NCBI GenBank assembly: GCA_019637315.1
Contig: JAHBVU010000004.1
Location: 1-64,000, forward strand
DNA from: Gemmatimonadales bacterium
GTDB taxonomy: Bacteria; Gemmatimonadota; Gemmatimonadetes; Gemmatimonadales; GWC2-71-9
Direction: 5' to 3'
DNA: 64,000 bases
The notes under the pieces were generated by a model. The model made no database searches, was not told where the DNA came from, and was given only the letters and a program-made list of their open reading frames with translations. The position numbers and the translations under genes are program-made. Shown here piece by piece: positions 13,869-21,303 of the stretch (position 1 is the first letter of the stretch; each line of letters opens with the position of its first letter).

Positions 13869-15143
13869 CTAATCCCCGATCTCGGTAAATCGACGGCCGA
13901 TCAAGACTTCGAGCCCCGCCTGGGCCAGGCGCGTCGCATAGCGGGACTGGACCAGCTCGGCTTGTGCCTCGGTCAACTGACTTTGCGCATCGAGCAGATC
14001 CAGGATCGTGCTGGCGCCGGCACGGTACCGCGCCTGCTGAACCCGGTAGTTCTCCTCCGCCACCCGAACACCCTGCTCGGCAAACCGGCTGGCCGCACGC
14101 GCCGTCCGATGCGCCTCATACGCCTCCGTGATATCCGCCTCGGCCGCCCGCTCGAGATCTTCTCGAACCGCCCGCGCAATATCGTTCGCGGCCCGAGCGC
14201 GGCGAACCGCCGTTTCGCGATTCAGGTTGTCCCAGATCGGCAGCGAGATCTGAAGGGAAATCGACCCGCGGTCGATCCCGGTCGGTGGAAAGGCGTCCCC
14301 GAACTTGGTGTATGACCCGACCAGGTTGGCCTGCGGCAGATAGGCTGCGTTGCGCGCCTTGACGAGTGCCTGGGTCGCTCGTTCGTTGCCGCGCGCCATC
14401 CGGTACTCCGGGCCCTGCTCCAGCGCGAGCGCCAGCGCGGCCGGGACCGTAATCGGAAGTTCCGACGGCAAGGTCGAGTCGAGCGGCGCAGCATCCACCG
14501 CGCCCCGCTGACCAATCCGGCGACCGAGCTGCAGGCGGGAAACCGCCAGCTGCGCTTCTTCCCGCAACAGTGCAACCTGTGCCCGGTTGACCTCGAGCAG
14601 GATCTGGAGCGAATCGGTCTGCACCACCGCACCGCTGACCACCCGCGCCCGAGCGATCACCAGCTGCTCCTGAGCCCGAGCCAGCCGCTGACGCGCCACG
14701 TCCAGCAACTCGCGTCCGCTCAAAACCGCGTAGTAGTCCCGTTCCGTGCCAAGCGCCGTGAGAAACAGCTGCTGCTGCTCACCGGCACGCGCCATTTCGA
14801 GCTCTGCCCCAAGCCGCCGGTAGTCAGCCGTCTTGCGGCCGCCCGTAAAGAGCTCGTACCGCGCCTCCACCCGCGCATTGACCGTGGTCCGCGCCGGCCG
14901 ACCGATGCCGATGTTGAACTGTTCCACGGAAAAGGCTGTCATGTCGGTCGCAACCGACAAGGACGGCGAAATGAAGGTCGTAAAGGCCGCCTTCCGCGCC
15001 CACTCCGCGGTGCTGAGCTGAGCAACAGCCGCGACATAATTGGGACTCAACCGCGTCGCGCGGTGGATGGCCTCCGACAACGTCACGCGGGGCAGCGAAT
15101 CAGACCCGAGCGCGGCCATCCCAAGCAGTACTGCTGCGATCAT
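13869..15143 (-). CDS. TolC family outer-membrane efflux protein
   Basis: 424 residues: signal peptide (MIAAVLLGMAALG), the LSEAIHRA start typical of OEP repeats, two homologous halves with long Ala/Gln/Glu/Arg-rich helices, and repeat end markers (DLLDAQSQLTEAQAELVQSR). It forms the trimeric exit duct for the RND pump. The ATG overlaps the pump stop by 4 bases (ATGA), so translation is probably coupled. Confidence 0.92.
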   Translation of the reverse strand: MIAAVLLGMAALGSDSLPRVTLSEAIHRATRLSPNYVAAVAQLSTAEWARKAAFTTFISPSLSVATDMTAFSVEQFNIGIGRPARTTVNARVEARYELFTGGRKTADYRRLGAELEMARAGEQQQLFLTALGTERDYYAVLSGRELLDVARQRLARAQEQLVIARARVVSGAVVQTDSLQILLEVNRAQVALLREEAQLAVSRLQLGRRIGQRGAVDAAPLDSTLPSELPITVPAALALALEQGPEYRMARGNERATQALVKARNAAYLPQANLVGSYTKFGDAFPPTGIDRGSISLQISLPIWDNLNRETAVRRARAANDIARAVREDLERAAEADITEAYEAHRTARAASRFAEQGVRVAEENYRVQQARYRAGASTILDLLDAQSQLTEAQAELVQSRYATRLAQAGLEVLIGRRFTEIGD

Positions 15144-18100
15144 CGAGCCTCCCCAGACACGACCGGGAGCGGCTCAGGCGCGGGCTCGGTTGCCGGCTTC
15201 CGCGAACGGGCCAGCGCCTGATCGAGCAACGAATACACAACCGGAACCAGGTACAGCGTCAGCACCATCGAGAACATCACGCCGCCCACAATGGCATACC
15301 CCAGCGGCCGGCGACTCGCCGCACCGGCACCCAGGCCGAGTGCAATCGGAGTCGCGCCAGCCGCCGCAGCAACCGAGGTCATCAGGATGGGACGGAGTCT
15401 GATCCGAGCAGACTCCAGCAGCGCAGCAGCCGTGGCCATTCCACGCGCCCGCGCCTGATTGGCATACTCCACCAGCAGAATCGAGTTCTTGGTCACCAGA
15501 CCGATCAGCAGAATCATGCCGATCTGACTGTAGAGGTTGATGGTCGACCCCGCCAGGAACAGCGTAAAGATGGCTCCCGTCACTGCAGGCGGAACGGCCA
15601 ACAGCACGGTAAATGGATGCACCAGCGACTCGAACTGCGACGCCAGCACCATGAAGACGATGATGAGCGAAAGGATGAATACGAAGTAGAGCGCACTGCC
15701 GCTTTCCTCGAGTTCCCGCGATTCGCCGGCCAACGCCACCGACGATCCGGTCGGCAGGACCTCTGCCGCCAGCAGACGCAACGAATCGAGCGCCTCACCA
15801 AGCGTGAAGTTCGGCGCGAGACTCGCGGTCATCGTCGCCGCCCGAACCCGGTTGAAGTGGTTGAGCTGGCGGGGACCCACGTTCTCGGCTACCCGGGCAA
15901 CCTGGTCGAGCTTGATCAGCTGACCACCCCGACCGCGCACCGTCAGCTCGGTCATTGCCGCCGGCGTTGCGCGCGCATCCGGCTCGAGCTGGATCATCAC
16001 GTCGTACAGCTTGTTGTTCATCGTGAAGGTGCTGATTCGCTGCCCGCCAAGCAGCGCTTGCATCGTGTTGGCCACGTCACGAACCGGGACGCCCAGATCT
16101 TCCATCCGGTCCCGCTCATACGACACCGTCAACTCCGGCTTGTTGACCCGGAGATCGGTGTCGACGTTGAGGAGTCCGCTGATCTGACGTGCTCGTGTGA
16201 TCAGGGTATCCATGGCAATGACCAGCGAGTCGAAGTTCGGATGGCGAACCACGAACTGCACCGGCTGCCCCCACCCGCCAAACGCCGGCGGATTGCTCGC
16301 AAACGCCAGCACACCAGGTACGGCACCCAGCTTGGGCTGCAGTTCCTGAATCACCTCCTGGACACTCCGCTTCCGCTCCGACCAGTCCGTAAAGCGGACG
16401 AAGATCATACCGGCGTTGACCCGACCGCCCCCGCCACCGCCGCCGAAAGCCACCATGCTGTTCATGGTGGAAATTTCGGGCACCTGGCTGATGATCTGCT
16501 CCACTTGACGCTGATACTCGTTGGTGTAGTGGATCGACGAGCCTTCCGGCGCCACGACATTGACCGTCATCATGCCGCGATCCTCCGGCGGCACGAACTC
16601 GGTCTTGAGGGTTCCGAAGACGAACCACGCCACCACCAGAACTGCGCCGACGCCGCCCAACACGAAGGCCCGCTGGTTGAGCGCGCGCGCCAGGGTCCGC
16701 TGATACCCTGTCGCCAGAGCGTTGAACCCGCGCTCGAAGGCCCGGAAGAGCGGCCCATGGTGGTGCTTGACACGCAGAACCTTGGCGCAGAGCATCGGGG
16801 TCAGCGTCAGCGCCACGAACCCGGACAGCGCCACTGCCACGGCGACGGTGATGCCGAATTCATTGAAGAGCCGACCGGTCGCCCCTTCGAGGAAGGCCAG
16901 CGGTGTGAACACGGCAATCAGTGACACCGTGGTGGCAATGACCGCAAAGGCAATTTCCCGAGTACCCCTGACTGCCGCTACGTCCGGCGGCTCGTTGAGT
17001 TCCTCCTGGCGCCGGTAGGCGTTCTCCAACACGATGATGGCGTCGTCGACCACGATACCGATGGCCAGGATCATGGCCAAGAGTGTGAGGTTGTTGATCG
17101 AGAAGCCCAGGAAGTACATCGCCGCGAAGGTGCCGATGATGGAGGTCGGAATCGCCAGGCCTGGGATGATCGTCGCCCGCACGTTTCGCAGGAAGACGAA
17201 GATGATCAGGATCACCAGAACACCGGTAATGACCAGCGTTTCTTCGGCTTCGAGAATCGAGCGTTTGACGTAGATCGAGTTGTCATACCCGATAGTCAGT
17301 GATACCCCCGGCGGAAGCTGGGACTCGATCTCTGGCACCATGGCGCGCACCCCGTCCGACAGCTCGACGAGATTCGACTTGGATTGCCGTACGATTGCGA
17401 CACCCACCGCGGGCTGACCGTTGAACCGGAAACGACTCCGGTCCTCCTCCGGACCAAGCTCGACCCGAGCAACATCGCCCAGTCTGACGATCTGCCCATT
17501 CAGGTTGGCTACGACGAGGCGGGAAAACTCCTCCGGAGTCTTGAGCTCGCCCATCGACCTGATGCTGAACTCGCGCTGCTGTGACTCGATCCGACCAGCC
17601 GGAATCTCGACGTTCCGGCTCTGCACCGCCGTCATGACGTCACTCGTGGTCAAACCGCGAGCCGCCAGCTCCGAGGCGTTGAGCCAGATTCGCATCGCAT
17701 AGCGCCGCTCGCCACGGATATCGATTCGACCAACCCCCGGGACCGTTTGCAGCGGTGTCTTGACGTATCGATCGGCAATATCGGTGAGCTGAAGCAGGTT
17801 GTAATTTTCGCCCTGCATCGTGATGAACATGATGGGCCGAGAGTCGGCATCCTGCTTGGCAACGACCGGCTCCAGGATCTCTTCGGGCAGGCGGCCCCGG
17901 ACCCGGGACACCAGATCGCGCACGTCCTGCGCCGCCAGCTCGATGTCCCGCCCGAGGTGAAACTCGAGGGTGATGGTGCTCTGCTGCTCCGAGCTTACGC
18001 TCGTCATGGTCCGAAGGCCCTCGGCCGAGGAGAGCTGCTCCTCGAGCACGTCGGTCACGGCCGATTCCATGACCCGGGGGTTGGCACCCCGAAGGGTTAC

Positions 18101-18244
18101 GCTGACCGAGACAATGGGCGGGTCGACGTCGGGGTACTCCCGAACACTCAATTTCTGATAGCTGATGACGCCGAACAGGACCAGCGCCAGGCTCATCATG
18201 GTCGCTAGGACCGGGCGCTTGATGGAGATATCAGAGAGGACCAT
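15140..18244 (-). CDS. RND family efflux permease (HAE-1/AcrB type)
   Basis: 1034 residues, full length for an AcrB-like proton/drug antiporter. It starts SDISIKRPVLATM, has large periplasmic loops after TM1 and TM7, and the proton-relay aspartates in GIVVDDAIIV of TM4 (near residue 400). The REYPDVDPP motif after TM1 marks the hydrophobe/amphiphile subfamily rather than heavy-metal CzcA. A Gly-rich run (GGGGGGG) lies in the second periplasmic loop. First gene of the operon; divergent from an unknown gene at 18391, with 146 bases between that may hold regulators' sites. No repressor gene is adjacent. Confidence 0.95.
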   Translation of the reverse strand: MVLSDISIKRPVLATMMSLALVLFGVISYQKLSVREYPDVDPPIVSVSVTLRGANPRVMESAVTDVLEEQLSSAEGLRTMTSVSSEQQSTITLEFHLGRDIELAAQDVRDLVSRVRGRLPEEILEPVVAKQDADSRPIMFITMQGENYNLLQLTDIADRYVKTPLQTVPGVGRIDIRGERRYAMRIWLNASELAARGLTTSDVMTAVQSRNVEIPAGRIESQQREFSIRSMGELKTPEEFSRLVVANLNGQIVRLGDVARVELGPEEDRSRFRFNGQPAVGVAIVRQSKSNLVELSDGVRAMVPEIESQLPPGVSLTIGYDNSIYVKRSILEAEETLVITGVLVILIIFVFLRNVRATIIPGLAIPTSIIGTFAAMYFLGFSINNLTLLAMILAIGIVVDDAIIVLENAYRRQEELNEPPDVAAVRGTREIAFAVIATTVSLIAVFTPLAFLEGATGRLFNEFGITVAVAVALSGFVALTLTPMLCAKVLRVKHHHGPLFRAFERGFNALATGYQRTLARALNQRAFVLGGVGAVLVVAWFVFGTLKTEFVPPEDRGMMTVNVVAPEGSSIHYTNEYQRQVEQIISQVPEISTMNSMVAFGGGGGGGRVNAGMIFVRFTDWSERKRSVQEVIQELQPKLGAVPGVLAFASNPPAFGGWGQPVQFVVRHPNFDSLVIAMDTLITRARQISGLLNVDTDLRVNKPELTVSYERDRMEDLGVPVRDVANTMQALLGGQRISTFTMNNKLYDVMIQLEPDARATPAAMTELTVRGRGGQLIKLDQVARVAENVGPRQLNHFNRVRAATMTASLAPNFTLGEALDSLRLLAAEVLPTGSSVALAGESRELEESGSALYFVFILSLIIVFMVLASQFESLVHPFTVLLAVPPAVTGAIFTLFLAGSTINLYSQIGMILLIGLVTKNSILLVEYANQARARGMATAAALLESARIRLRPILMTSVAAAAGATPIALGLGAGAASRRPLGYAIVGGVMFSMVLTLYLVPVVYSLLDQALARSRKPATEPAPEPLPVVSGEAR

Positions 18245-18390
18245 CAGTTGTTACCCGCAGGCCGAAAAGATGATAGGCTACGTCGGGACCCCGACATCGC
18301 CCTGCAGACCAGACTACCTATTACGCGCGTCTGCCTTCCAACGTTGAGCAAGGCGTTAAGTTTCGGCCGCAATCTGTCCAAGGACGGCGC

Positions 18391-18759
18391 ATGGCGGTCA
18401 AACTCAGTTCCCGACAACTTGCCACCCTGGCAGTGCTCGAGACCTTCCCCCCGAAATTCGACAGTATCAACCGCCTGATCGAGGAACTGGCGTCCCTCCG
18501 AATGGATGAATCTCAGACCAGGCGGCTGGCTCGGATGCTCGACGAGATGAAAGCGGCCGCTCAGGGCGTGGGCGAATCCGGGGTGGCAGACTCCCTCGGC
18601 GTGATGGCCACGCTGGCCCGCCGATCAGGGGCGGTTCAGATGCGGGTTCGGGGCCTGCGCGAGGGATTCATGGCCCTCAAGACAAACCTCGAAGGCGCAC
18701 TCAAAGCCGCGAGCACGCCCGAAACCCCAGTCGATGAGGCCGAGGAACTACCGTCTTAG
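18391..18759 (+). CDS. Hypothetical soluble helical protein
   Basis: 122 residues, mostly charged amphipathic helix (LIEELASLRMDESQTRRLAR, then a Gly/Ala segment and RVRGLREGFMALKTNLEGAL) with an acidic, Pro-rich tail. No DNA-binding or catalytic motif recognised. An AAGGACGG ribosome site lies before ATG 18391. It is divergent from the efflux operon and convergent with the 52-residue membrane gene, whose stop overlaps its own. Confidence 0.6.
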   Translation: MAVKLSSRQLATLAVLETFPPKFDSINRLIEELASLRMDESQTRRLARMLDEMKAAAQGVGESGVADSLGVMATLARRSGAVQMRVRGLREGFMALKTNLEGALKAASTPETPVDEAEELPS

Positions 18760-18914
18760 GACTTCTCTTTGACGAGCTTGTCGATGACGGGGCCAGCCAT
18801 CAGCGCCGCCATGGCATGCACGAGCACGCCGATCAGCAGAGTGACAAAAGTCAGCGCGAAGAGGATGCCGGCGGCGCCCAAGAAGGCGAACACGCGTCCG
18901 ATCGGTTCCAGCAT
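18756..18914 (-). CDS. Small membrane protein, 52 residues
   Basis: Short open frame starting ATG at 18914: MLEPIGRVF, then a long hydrophobic core (about 8-42, enough for one or two helices) and a cationic tail IDKLVKEKS. The good coding pattern, a promoter of nearly consensus quality directly upstream (18944-18972) and the tight convergent end (stop overlapping the stop of the 122-residue gene) support a real gene. Shine-Dalgarno is weak. Function unknown; small stress or transporter-associated membrane proteins look like this. Confidence 0.6.
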   Translation of the reverse strand: MLEPIGRVFAFLGAAGILFALTFVTLLIGVLVHAMAALMAGPVIDKLVKEKS

Positions 18915-18933
18915 AGTCAGGTCCAAGTGCGGG

Positions 18934-18955
18934 ACAGATTGCCAATTTAATCTGT
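18934..18955. promoter_or_regulatory. Operator-like dyad over the -10 box of the 52-residue gene
   Basis: ACAGATT, 8 bases, AATCTGT: a perfect 7-base inverted repeat overlapping the -10 hexamer of the minus-strand promoter. The placement fits repressor binding. It could instead end the potD transcript. Confidence 0.4.
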
Positions 18956-18972
18956 AAGCCCTACAGTGGCAA
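18944..18972 (-). promoter_or_regulatory. Promoter of the 52-residue membrane protein
   Basis: Minus strand: -35 TTGCCA (18967-18972), 17-base spacer, -10 TAAATT (18944-18949). The expected start is about 23 bases before the ATG at 18914. Confidence 0.5.
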
Positions 18973-18983
18973 CCAGTTAGGGA

Positions 18984-20087
18984 TCAGGCTGCCTTGATCT
19001 CGGTCCAGATCCGATCCCAGAGCTCAACCCCCGCCCCCAAGTCCCGCTGGTACTCGAGGCGCTCGAGTTCGGCCGGCGACGGATAGGGCCTGGGATACCG
19101 AGTGAGGCTCTGAGCAGCCTGGTTCGGCGTACCATACCCCGTAGCATCGGCAATGGCAGCCGCCACCTCCGGCCGCAGCACATAGTCGAGGAACGCATGG
19201 GCCGCGCGGGGGTTGGGCGCGGTCCTGAGCACGACCAGCGCATCCGCGAAGATCATACTTCCCTCCTTCGGTACCACGAATCCGATTTCCGGCTGCTCGG
19301 CCATCGCTTGCGCAGCGTCTCCGCTCCACATCTGGGCCAGCCAGATGTCGCCCGCGATCAACTGAGGTTTGACCGGCGCCGAGGCGTAGGCCCGGAGGTT
19401 GGGTTTGGCCGCCAGCGCATCCTGTTTGGCCTCGGCCAGCTGGGCTGGATCGACCGAGTTGATGGAATGCCCGCGATAGCGGAGAAAGCAACCGATCACA
19501 TCGCGGGCGTCGTCGAGCATGGTCATCTTGCCGCGATAGGTCGGATCGAGAAAAACGCCCCAGCTGTCAGGTGCGGAGGGCAGTCGATCCTTGCGATAGG
19601 CAATTCCCGTGGTCCCCCAACCCCAGGGAACCGAGTACTCCGTACCGGGGTCCCATACCGGATCGGCAAAGAGCGGCGCCAGGTTGCCGATATTGCTCAG
19701 GTAGCTCCGATTGAGCGGCGCAATCAGGTTCCGGCCCCGCAGCAAGGGGAAGAGGTAGCTCGACGGCAGCGCCAGATCATACCCGGTGGCGCCGGCCAGC
19801 AGCTTGGCGGCCAGCTCTTCGTTGCTTTCGTAGGTGTCGAGCGTGACCGCCACGCCGTGTTCGGCCTCGAAGCCCGAGATGGTGTCAGGCGCCAGGTAGT
19901 CGGACCAGAGGTAAAGATTGAGCCGCTTCTCCATCGGGCCCAGGTCGCCCGAGAAATCGCGAAGCGGCGCCTTGCCGCAAGCGCCCAACAACGCGGCGGC
20001 GGCCGAGGACCCTAGCGCCGCGGCGCCGACGCCCTGGAGAAAGTCGCGCCGCGAGGGATTGCGGTCAGATCGAGCGAAGAATGGCAT
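18984..20087 (-). CDS. potD: Spermidine/putrescine ABC transporter substrate-binding protein
   Basis: 367 residues, PotD/PotF family polyamine-binding lipoprotein. The N-terminus has a Tat motif (SRRDFLQG, Arg 13-14) followed by a hydrophobic run and lipobox LLGAC (Cys 37), so it looks like a Tat-exported lipoprotein. Family blocks: LNLYLWSDYLAPDTISGFE, LALPSSYLFPLL, YSVPWGWGTTGIAY, and the C-terminal VELWDRIWTEIK. It delivers polyamines to PotBC. Last gene of the operon; its start overlaps the preceding PLP gene by 23 bases. Confidence 0.93.
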   Translation of the reverse strand: MPFFARSDRNPSRRDFLQGVGAAALGSSAAAALLGACGKAPLRDFSGDLGPMEKRLNLYLWSDYLAPDTISGFEAEHGVAVTLDTYESNEELAAKLLAGATGYDLALPSSYLFPLLRGRNLIAPLNRSYLSNIGNLAPLFADPVWDPGTEYSVPWGWGTTGIAYRKDRLPSAPDSWGVFLDPTYRGKMTMLDDARDVIGCFLRYRGHSINSVDPAQLAEAKQDALAAKPNLRAYASAPVKPQLIAGDIWLAQMWSGDAAQAMAEQPEIGFVVPKEGSMIFADALVVLRTAPNPRAAHAFLDYVLRPEVAAAIADATGYGTPNQAAQSLTRYPRPYPSPAELERLEYQRDLGAGVELWDRIWTEIKAA

Positions 20088-21303
20088 GGGACTCCGTCAG
20101 CAGCCGATCAATGTCTCGAGGGCGATTGTGCAGATGCGGGGCAACCCGAATCCCCGGCCCGCGATGCGCCACGATCACGCCGCGGGCCACGAGCTCGCGA
20201 GTCAAACTGAGATCACGATCCCGGTCGCCGGTGGTGAGGCAGACCAGGGTCGACCGACTCTCGGGCGCAAGACTCGACAGGCAGCGCAGCCCGGTACCGG
20301 GCAGCCCGGCCAGCAGCCGATCGAGGAGGTTCTTCACGTGCCGTTCGACCGTCGGTACGCCAACTTCGAGCAGCAGTTCGACCGACTGATCGAGCGCCAC
20401 GAGCGCGGGATCGGCCTGGCCACCAACCTGGAACCGGGACGCATCCGGCTTCCACGCAATGGTCGGGCGACCGAACACCGACGTCGTCATACTCATCCAT
20501 CCGGCGCGATCGGGTCGGATCGTGGGCAGCTGCTCGGGCGCTACGTAAAGTACTGCGGCCCCGGGCATGCCCATCAGCCATTTGTAGCCACCGGCCACCA
20601 GGATGTCGACGCCCGAAGCACTGAGATCGACGGGAGTGGCTCCGACGCTCTGGATCGCATCGACGACCGACAGCACGCCAGCCGCTCGGCAGGCCCTGCC
20701 CAGCTGCGCCAGGTCGATTCGGTGGCCGGTCTGCCAGTGCACATGGCTCACCAGCACTGCCCGGGTCCGGCCGTCGATCAGGCCGAGCAGCTGCTCCAAG
20801 TCCAGATGGATTTCGACTGGCAACTGCCGCACCTGGACTCCGCGCCGCTCGAGGTCGAGAGCTGCGTAGATCACACCAGGATAATCGTTGGAGGGGCAGA
20901 CCACGTTGTCGCCGGGCCGCCAGTCGATCCCATTGACGGCAGAGACAATCCCATCGCTGGTCGTGGGGACGAACGTCAGCGAATCGACTGGCGCACCGAG
21001 CAAGCGGCTCAGCTTCTGACGAAGCGGATTGGCGTCGTAGTCCTGCGCACCTGCCTGGTAGAGCCGATGCACCTCCTGACGATTGGTCTGGTAGGTCGAG
21101 ACGGCGGCCGCCGAGCGACGCGGCAGCGGTGAGGACGCCGCATGATTGAGATATGCAGCCCCTCTGACCCCGGGAAACTCGGCCGGCGCGAGGCCGCCGT
21201 CCTGTGCGTCTACCATTCTGGGATCCAGCATTGTGCTCCACGCGCCCAAGCCGATGCCGGCCTGGGCCATTCGGTCGACGAAGGTCCGACGGGGTATGGT
21301 CAC
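20065..21303 (-). CDS. Tat-signal class V-fold PLP enzyme inside the pot operon
   Basis: 412 residues from a GTG that overlaps the potC stop by 4 bases. A twin-arginine-like leader (IPRRTFVDRMAQAGIGLGAW) precedes a complete class V aminotransferase fold (isopenicillin-N epimerase/cysteine-desulfurase-like): AAYLNHAASSPLP, cofactor Asp 215 in SVVDAIQSVGA, Schiff-base Lys 241 in GGYKW. Members include epimerases, desulfurases and lyases; the substrate here is unknown. Being locked between potC and potD by overlaps suggests it acts on an imported amine or is exported with PotD. Whether the leader works as a signal is not proven. Confidence 0.82.
   Translation of the reverse strand: MTIPRRTFVDRMAQAGIGLGAWSTMLDPRMVDAQDGGLAPAEFPGVRGAAYLNHAASSPLPRRSAAAVSTYQTNRQEVHRLYQAGAQDYDANPLRQKLSRLLGAPVDSLTFVPTTSDGIVSAVNGIDWRPGDNVVCPSNDYPGVIYAALDLERRGVQVRQLPVEIHLDLEQLLGLIDGRTRAVLVSHVHWQTGHRIDLAQLGRACRAAGVLSVVDAIQSVGATPVDLSASGVDILVAGGYKWLMGMPGAAVLYVAPEQLPTIRPDRAGWMSMTTSVFGRPTIAWKPDASRFQVGGQADPALVALDQSVELLLEVGVPTVERHVKNLLDRLLAGLPGTGLRCLSSLAPESRSTLVCLTTGDRDRDLSLTRELVARGVIVAHRGPGIRVAPHLHNRPRDIDRLLTESHAILRSI

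Follow-up and report, generated by a model that had tools for sequence, protein, structure and literature searches.

The locus

The window analysed here, a stretch of 64,000 nucleotides from a Gemmatimonadales bacterium contig (JAHBVU010000004.1), carries two convergent genes between a polyamine-transporter operon and the gene of an RND (AcrB-type) pump. One encodes a protein of 52 residues and the other a protein of 122 residues, modeled as a helical bundle and called the partner below; their ends share the TTAG at 18756-18759, so that the two stop codons overlap. The small gene begins 69 bases after the end of potD, the nearest gene of the polyamine operon, which lies on the same strand. Between potD and potC is an aminotransferase-like gene (labeled from its sequence; 20065-21303, minus strand), for which tblastn gave a match in one of 28 loci, the window itself. 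No terminator-like site was found on either strand between 18244 and 18956, and a search of Rfam over the window gave no match.

Table 1. Features at the locus, in window coordinates
Feature	Position	Strand	Remarks
Small-protein gene, 52 aa	18756..18914	-	ATG start at 18914, TAA stop at 18758-18756; conserved in relatives under purifying selection, with six invariant residues
Partner gene, 122-aa helical-bundle protein	18391..18759	+	Convergent neighbour in 26/28 loci
RND (AcrB-type) pump gene	15140..18244	-	Beyond the partner, on the strand of the small gene; Pfam ACR_tran, 1024 bits
Putative -35 element, TTGCCA	18967..18972	-	TTG in 23/27 upstream regions, TTGC in 20 of these 23
Putative -10 element, TAAATT	18944..18949	-	TAnnnT 16-18 bases from TTG in 23/27 upstream regions
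Expected transcription start	18937	-	Placed from the -10 position; distance to the ATG about 23 bases (leader)
7-base dyad, ACAGATT-N8-AATCTGT	18934..18955 (arms 18934-18940 and 18949-18955)		Perfect; over the -10 box

A conserved small membrane protein

The sequence-only reading had proposed a 52-residue membrane protein on the minus strand, running from ATG to TAA. That frame exists, and its conservation argues that it is a genuine, translated gene. A TTG at 18926 offers an alternative start that would lengthen the product to 56 residues; the ATG is likely to be the true one, since in relatives the start codon falls at this position or no more than two codons away. Homologues (E ≤ 0.001) occur in 17 of 61 relatives, the window's own genome counted. 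A phylum-wide profile search found the gene in 37 of 395 Gemmatimonadota genomes, every one of them in a single GTDB family (f1); outside that family the same genomes held no homologue at this threshold, and a class-level search returned nothing there but weak matches (E 0.003 or worse). The gene is single-copy in nearly all of its hosts. Our main comparison set of 27 members spans 14 genera, its proteins being 40-87% identical to that of the window, and its rows are not independent, since genera g1, g14 and g49 each contribute five.

Selection on the frame is strongly purifying among the nearest relatives. Comparison with the six closest aligned members gives pN/pS values of 0.13 (G004), 0.23, 0.25, 0.25, 0.34 and 0.35, at pS values of 0.57-0.72, which bring synonymous sites close to saturation even in near relatives; ratios for distant pairs (up to 0.95) are uninformative for this reason. 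Frameshifts among close relatives would have spoken against a gene, but the frame is open in all 16 aligned members, with insertions and deletions confined to its two ends. One genome of the same genus (G001) holds neither the small gene, nor the partner, nor potD; the whole region has therefore been lost or is absent from that 990-contig assembly. A Shine-Dalgarno-like match precedes 18 of the 27 members, against 3.5 in shuffles, and the window copy has none.

Six columns are invariant across the 27 members (A10, G13, A14, A20, L21 and D45), and 11 in the 16-member alignment. Over residues 8-44 conservation follows a helical period of about 100 degrees (permutation p 0.003), which places the conserved positions on one helix face. 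The core lacks any charged residue in 23 of 27 members, histidine being counted as charged, and AlphaFold2 returned a single helix over residues 2-51 (pLDDT 84, from an alignment of only two sequences). With fewer than about 60 residues and one helix long enough to span the membrane, uncharged in its core in most members, the product is a candidate small bitopic membrane protein, its translation being read from conservation. Its N-terminal end is neutral and its C-terminal end basic on average, a charge bias from which an N-out/C-in topology is predicted, while a hydrophobic stretch of 34 residues would also be compatible with a hairpin or a peripheral position. The basic tail that had been described from the sequence is a fair reading of the window copy (net +1 from D45 onward) but a mild trait of the family, with a mean of +1.3 and a range from -2 to +4.

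Searches of Pfam, NCBIfam, PHROGs, PADLOC and PDB sequences gave no significant match to the small protein. The PDB profile search returned nothing up to E 1 from 16 rows and one photosystem peptide (E 0.18) from 27. Matches to NCBIfam TIGR00727 (E 0.0011, 1 of 27 members), NCBIfam FrlA (E 0.0034, 5 of 27) and Pfam TMEM218_N (E 0.0048, 1 of 27) were judged to be chance, of the kind that a short hydrophobic query attracts. A literature search for small membrane proteins of Gemmatimonadota was likewise without a match.

A kept promoter and a dyad that is not kept

The promoter assigned to the small gene by eye, TTGCCA-17-TAAATT, lies where it was claimed, and its comparison across relatives is favorable. 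For 27 members we asked for TTG-N16/19-TAnnnT at most 130 bases upstream, dropping G019, in which a contig end cuts the region. The motif is present in 23 of the 27 upstream regions, always at a spacing of 16-18, whereas dinucleotide shuffles of these regions gave a mean of 0.9 and a maximum of 5 in 500; G014, G254, G076 and G240 lack it. The same test found it upstream of none of 26 partner genes, a set shaped by an anchor inside the gene in G189, the lack of a detected start codon in G019 and an upstream region of only 84 bases in G159, and upstream of 2 of 18 RND genes. On this evidence a sigma-70-type promoter stands before the small gene and is kept across most members. G031 and G008 have just 7 bases between the end of the -10 and the start codon, and their messages would therefore be leaderless.

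The 2 kb from 18200 to 20200 hold two promoter-like sites, against 0.4 in shuffles. The second, TTGCCA-17-TACAGT (18939-18967, plus strand), shares bases with the first but reads in the other direction, and no kept gene of at least 100 residues starts within 250 bases downstream of it. Over the whole genome (G000), TTGAC-17/18-TAnnnT pairs are twofold enriched (89 against 44 in a reversed control), a hint of the organism's ordinary promoter form. The TTGCG type (57 against 89) and the GGTTGC type (18 against 27) are not enriched genome-wide, and because of the latter count no regulon sharing the promoter was found. The small gene thus keeps an unusual -35 (TTGC), which could reflect a special factor.

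The perfect 7-base dyad had been taken for an operator. It does exist, but the regulatory role is rejected: only the window genome, 1 of 27 members, has a dyad over the -10, and 6% of shuffles of the window's 100-base upstream region hold a perfect 7-base dyad (loop 3-20). Dyads in G009, G031 and G008 are unrelated to it. Chance is the most likely source. A promoter read by eye can evidently pass a conservation check that a dyad caught by eye fails.

The convergent partner and other neighbours

Neighbours were counted by tblastn in 28 loci, among which those near contig ends may hide some; the queries (C6-C26) come from an earlier clustering, and a few (C10, C17) may be antisense frames. The linkage of small gene and partner is nearly constant, and the partner is the sole neighbour of which this can be said: it was found in 26 loci, always convergent and adjacent, and was not detected beside the small gene in G012 and G033. 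This tail-to-tail arrangement is a finding of the present comparison. In the 14 loci measured to the base, the window included, the two genes overlap by exactly 4 bases in seven, and the others lie between an overlap of 20 bases and a gap of 10. The partner is part of a protein family spread more widely in Gemmatimonadota, with matches in 35 of 61 relatives at E 0.01. Where the match is strong (E < 1e-20; 15 genomes), the small gene is always present as well; the distant homologues found in other genomes do not have it beside them.

The model of the partner, together with a weak match to the Hpt domain (PF01627; 2 of 15 proteins, best E 0.0017) and plant and bacterial Hpt proteins among its weak Foldseek matches, gives it some likeness to that domain. 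An invariant or nearly invariant histidine column, as expected for a phosphorylatable residue, is missing from the 15 sequences, which speaks against a true Hpt domain.

Other neighbours are less faithful. Downstream of the small gene, and on its strand, 19 of 28 loci show RND homology, a frequent rather than constant neighbour, and eight of 27 loci scanned keep the small gene with no RND match nearby. Two further loci, L046 (G018) and L139 (G254), show fragments only (query residues 236-362 and 1-69) with small gene and partner both present. In G012, which lacks the partner, the start of the RND gene lies 362 bases past the match start of the small gene. Of the 28 loci, 13 have potD within reach.

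Proposed role and competing readings

We think it probable that the gene encodes a single-pass accessory subunit of the inner membrane, one that works by helix packing and is vertically kept under its own promoter; topology, helix packing and accessory role are the most likely interpretation of the patterns described above. The sigma-70-type promoter, about 30 bases before the ATG, would drive the small gene and so make it independent of the polyamine-transporter operon. The product would be one long helix whose conserved small-residue face (A10, G13, A14, A20, L21) packs on another membrane protein and tunes or stabilises it, in the manner of known one-helix subunits. The target may be the partner, the RND pump or something else, and across the 28 loci no neighbour points to it.

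That the small protein instead serves as a membrane tether, acting together with the convergent 122-residue protein, is somewhat unlikely. Their near-constant adjacency and the presence of both in each of the 15 genomes whose partner match is strong speak for a joint function; on the other side stand the two genomes that keep the small gene with no detected partner, the distant partner homologues without it, and the difference in upstream signals (23 of 27 against 0 of 26). We consider it unlikely that the helix is a modulator like AcrZ, binding and tuning the adjoining pump, although it is near that 49-residue protein in size and one-helix build (PMC7267776, in the portion available) and a same-strand RND gene often follows, also in G012, where the partner is absent. 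The loci with fragments or no RND match weigh against this, as does the AcrZ Pfam model (PF10766), on which membership of that family was rejected: its best match in the window's genome lies elsewhere (12.3 bits, against a cut-off of 26.2), and even a threshold of E 1 yields no match in any of the 27 members. A further reading, distinctly doubtful, concerns transcription: the promoter of the small gene could drive one transcript that covers this gene, runs antisense across the 122-residue gene and continues into the RND-TolC genes, in which case the helical-bundle gene would be expressed in opposition to both membrane helix and pump. The order of small gene, opposite-strand gene and RND gene, the same in most RND-bearing loci, is compatible with such a noncontiguous operon, as are the lack of a terminator in between in the window and the scarcity of a comparable conserved promoter before RND genes (2 of 18).

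Two other explanations fare worse. Size, hydrophobicity and the tail-to-tail overlap might suggest a type I toxin-like peptide, with the convergent transcript supplying an antisense RNA that controls it. This is very improbable for a gene that occurs once in almost every host, with a stable place within one family, strongly conserved in its amino acids and without a match in PHROGs, PADLOC or Pfam; the antisense partner is, besides, itself a conserved protein gene. A chance open frame in transcribed sequence at the 3' end of the polyamine operon would account for the position just after potD on its strand and for the missing Shine-Dalgarno match of the window copy. We give it hardly any credence, because purifying selection and a conserved promoter of its own contradict it; homologues also exist where potD is not adjacent. 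The gene adds a conserved small membrane protein, with no significant Pfam, NCBIfam or PDB match here, to a poorly studied phylum; its promoter, which most members from the 14 genera retain, and the nearly constant convergent partner make its function directly testable in a cultured relative.

Comparison with known systems

Known small membrane proteins offer partial parallels. MaAIMP_sms (PF16951), the small subunit of a methionine/alanine importer, is similarly short and gives a weak Pfam match in 3 of 27 members, but the best E (0.061) is not significant. AcrZ, described in the available part of PMC7267776 as a 49-residue modulator of AcrB in E. coli with a proline (P16) in the middle of its helix, shares with the present protein its length, its single helix and the frequent nearness of an AcrB-type RND gene. 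It differs in that no sequence match joins the two, that the RND gene is missing in 8 of 27 loci, and that the conserved proline here (P42 of the window copy) lies near the C-terminal end. For gene order the closest counterpart is the noncontiguous operon menE-menC-MW1733-ytkD-MW1731 of S. aureus, as the accessible text of PMC7154746 presents it. Although the RND gene is absent from 8 of 27 loci here, the succession of small gene, opposite-strand gene and RND-TolC genes, with no intrinsic terminator between them in the window, resembles the S. aureus operon in its gene order, and co-transcription would be a prediction from it.
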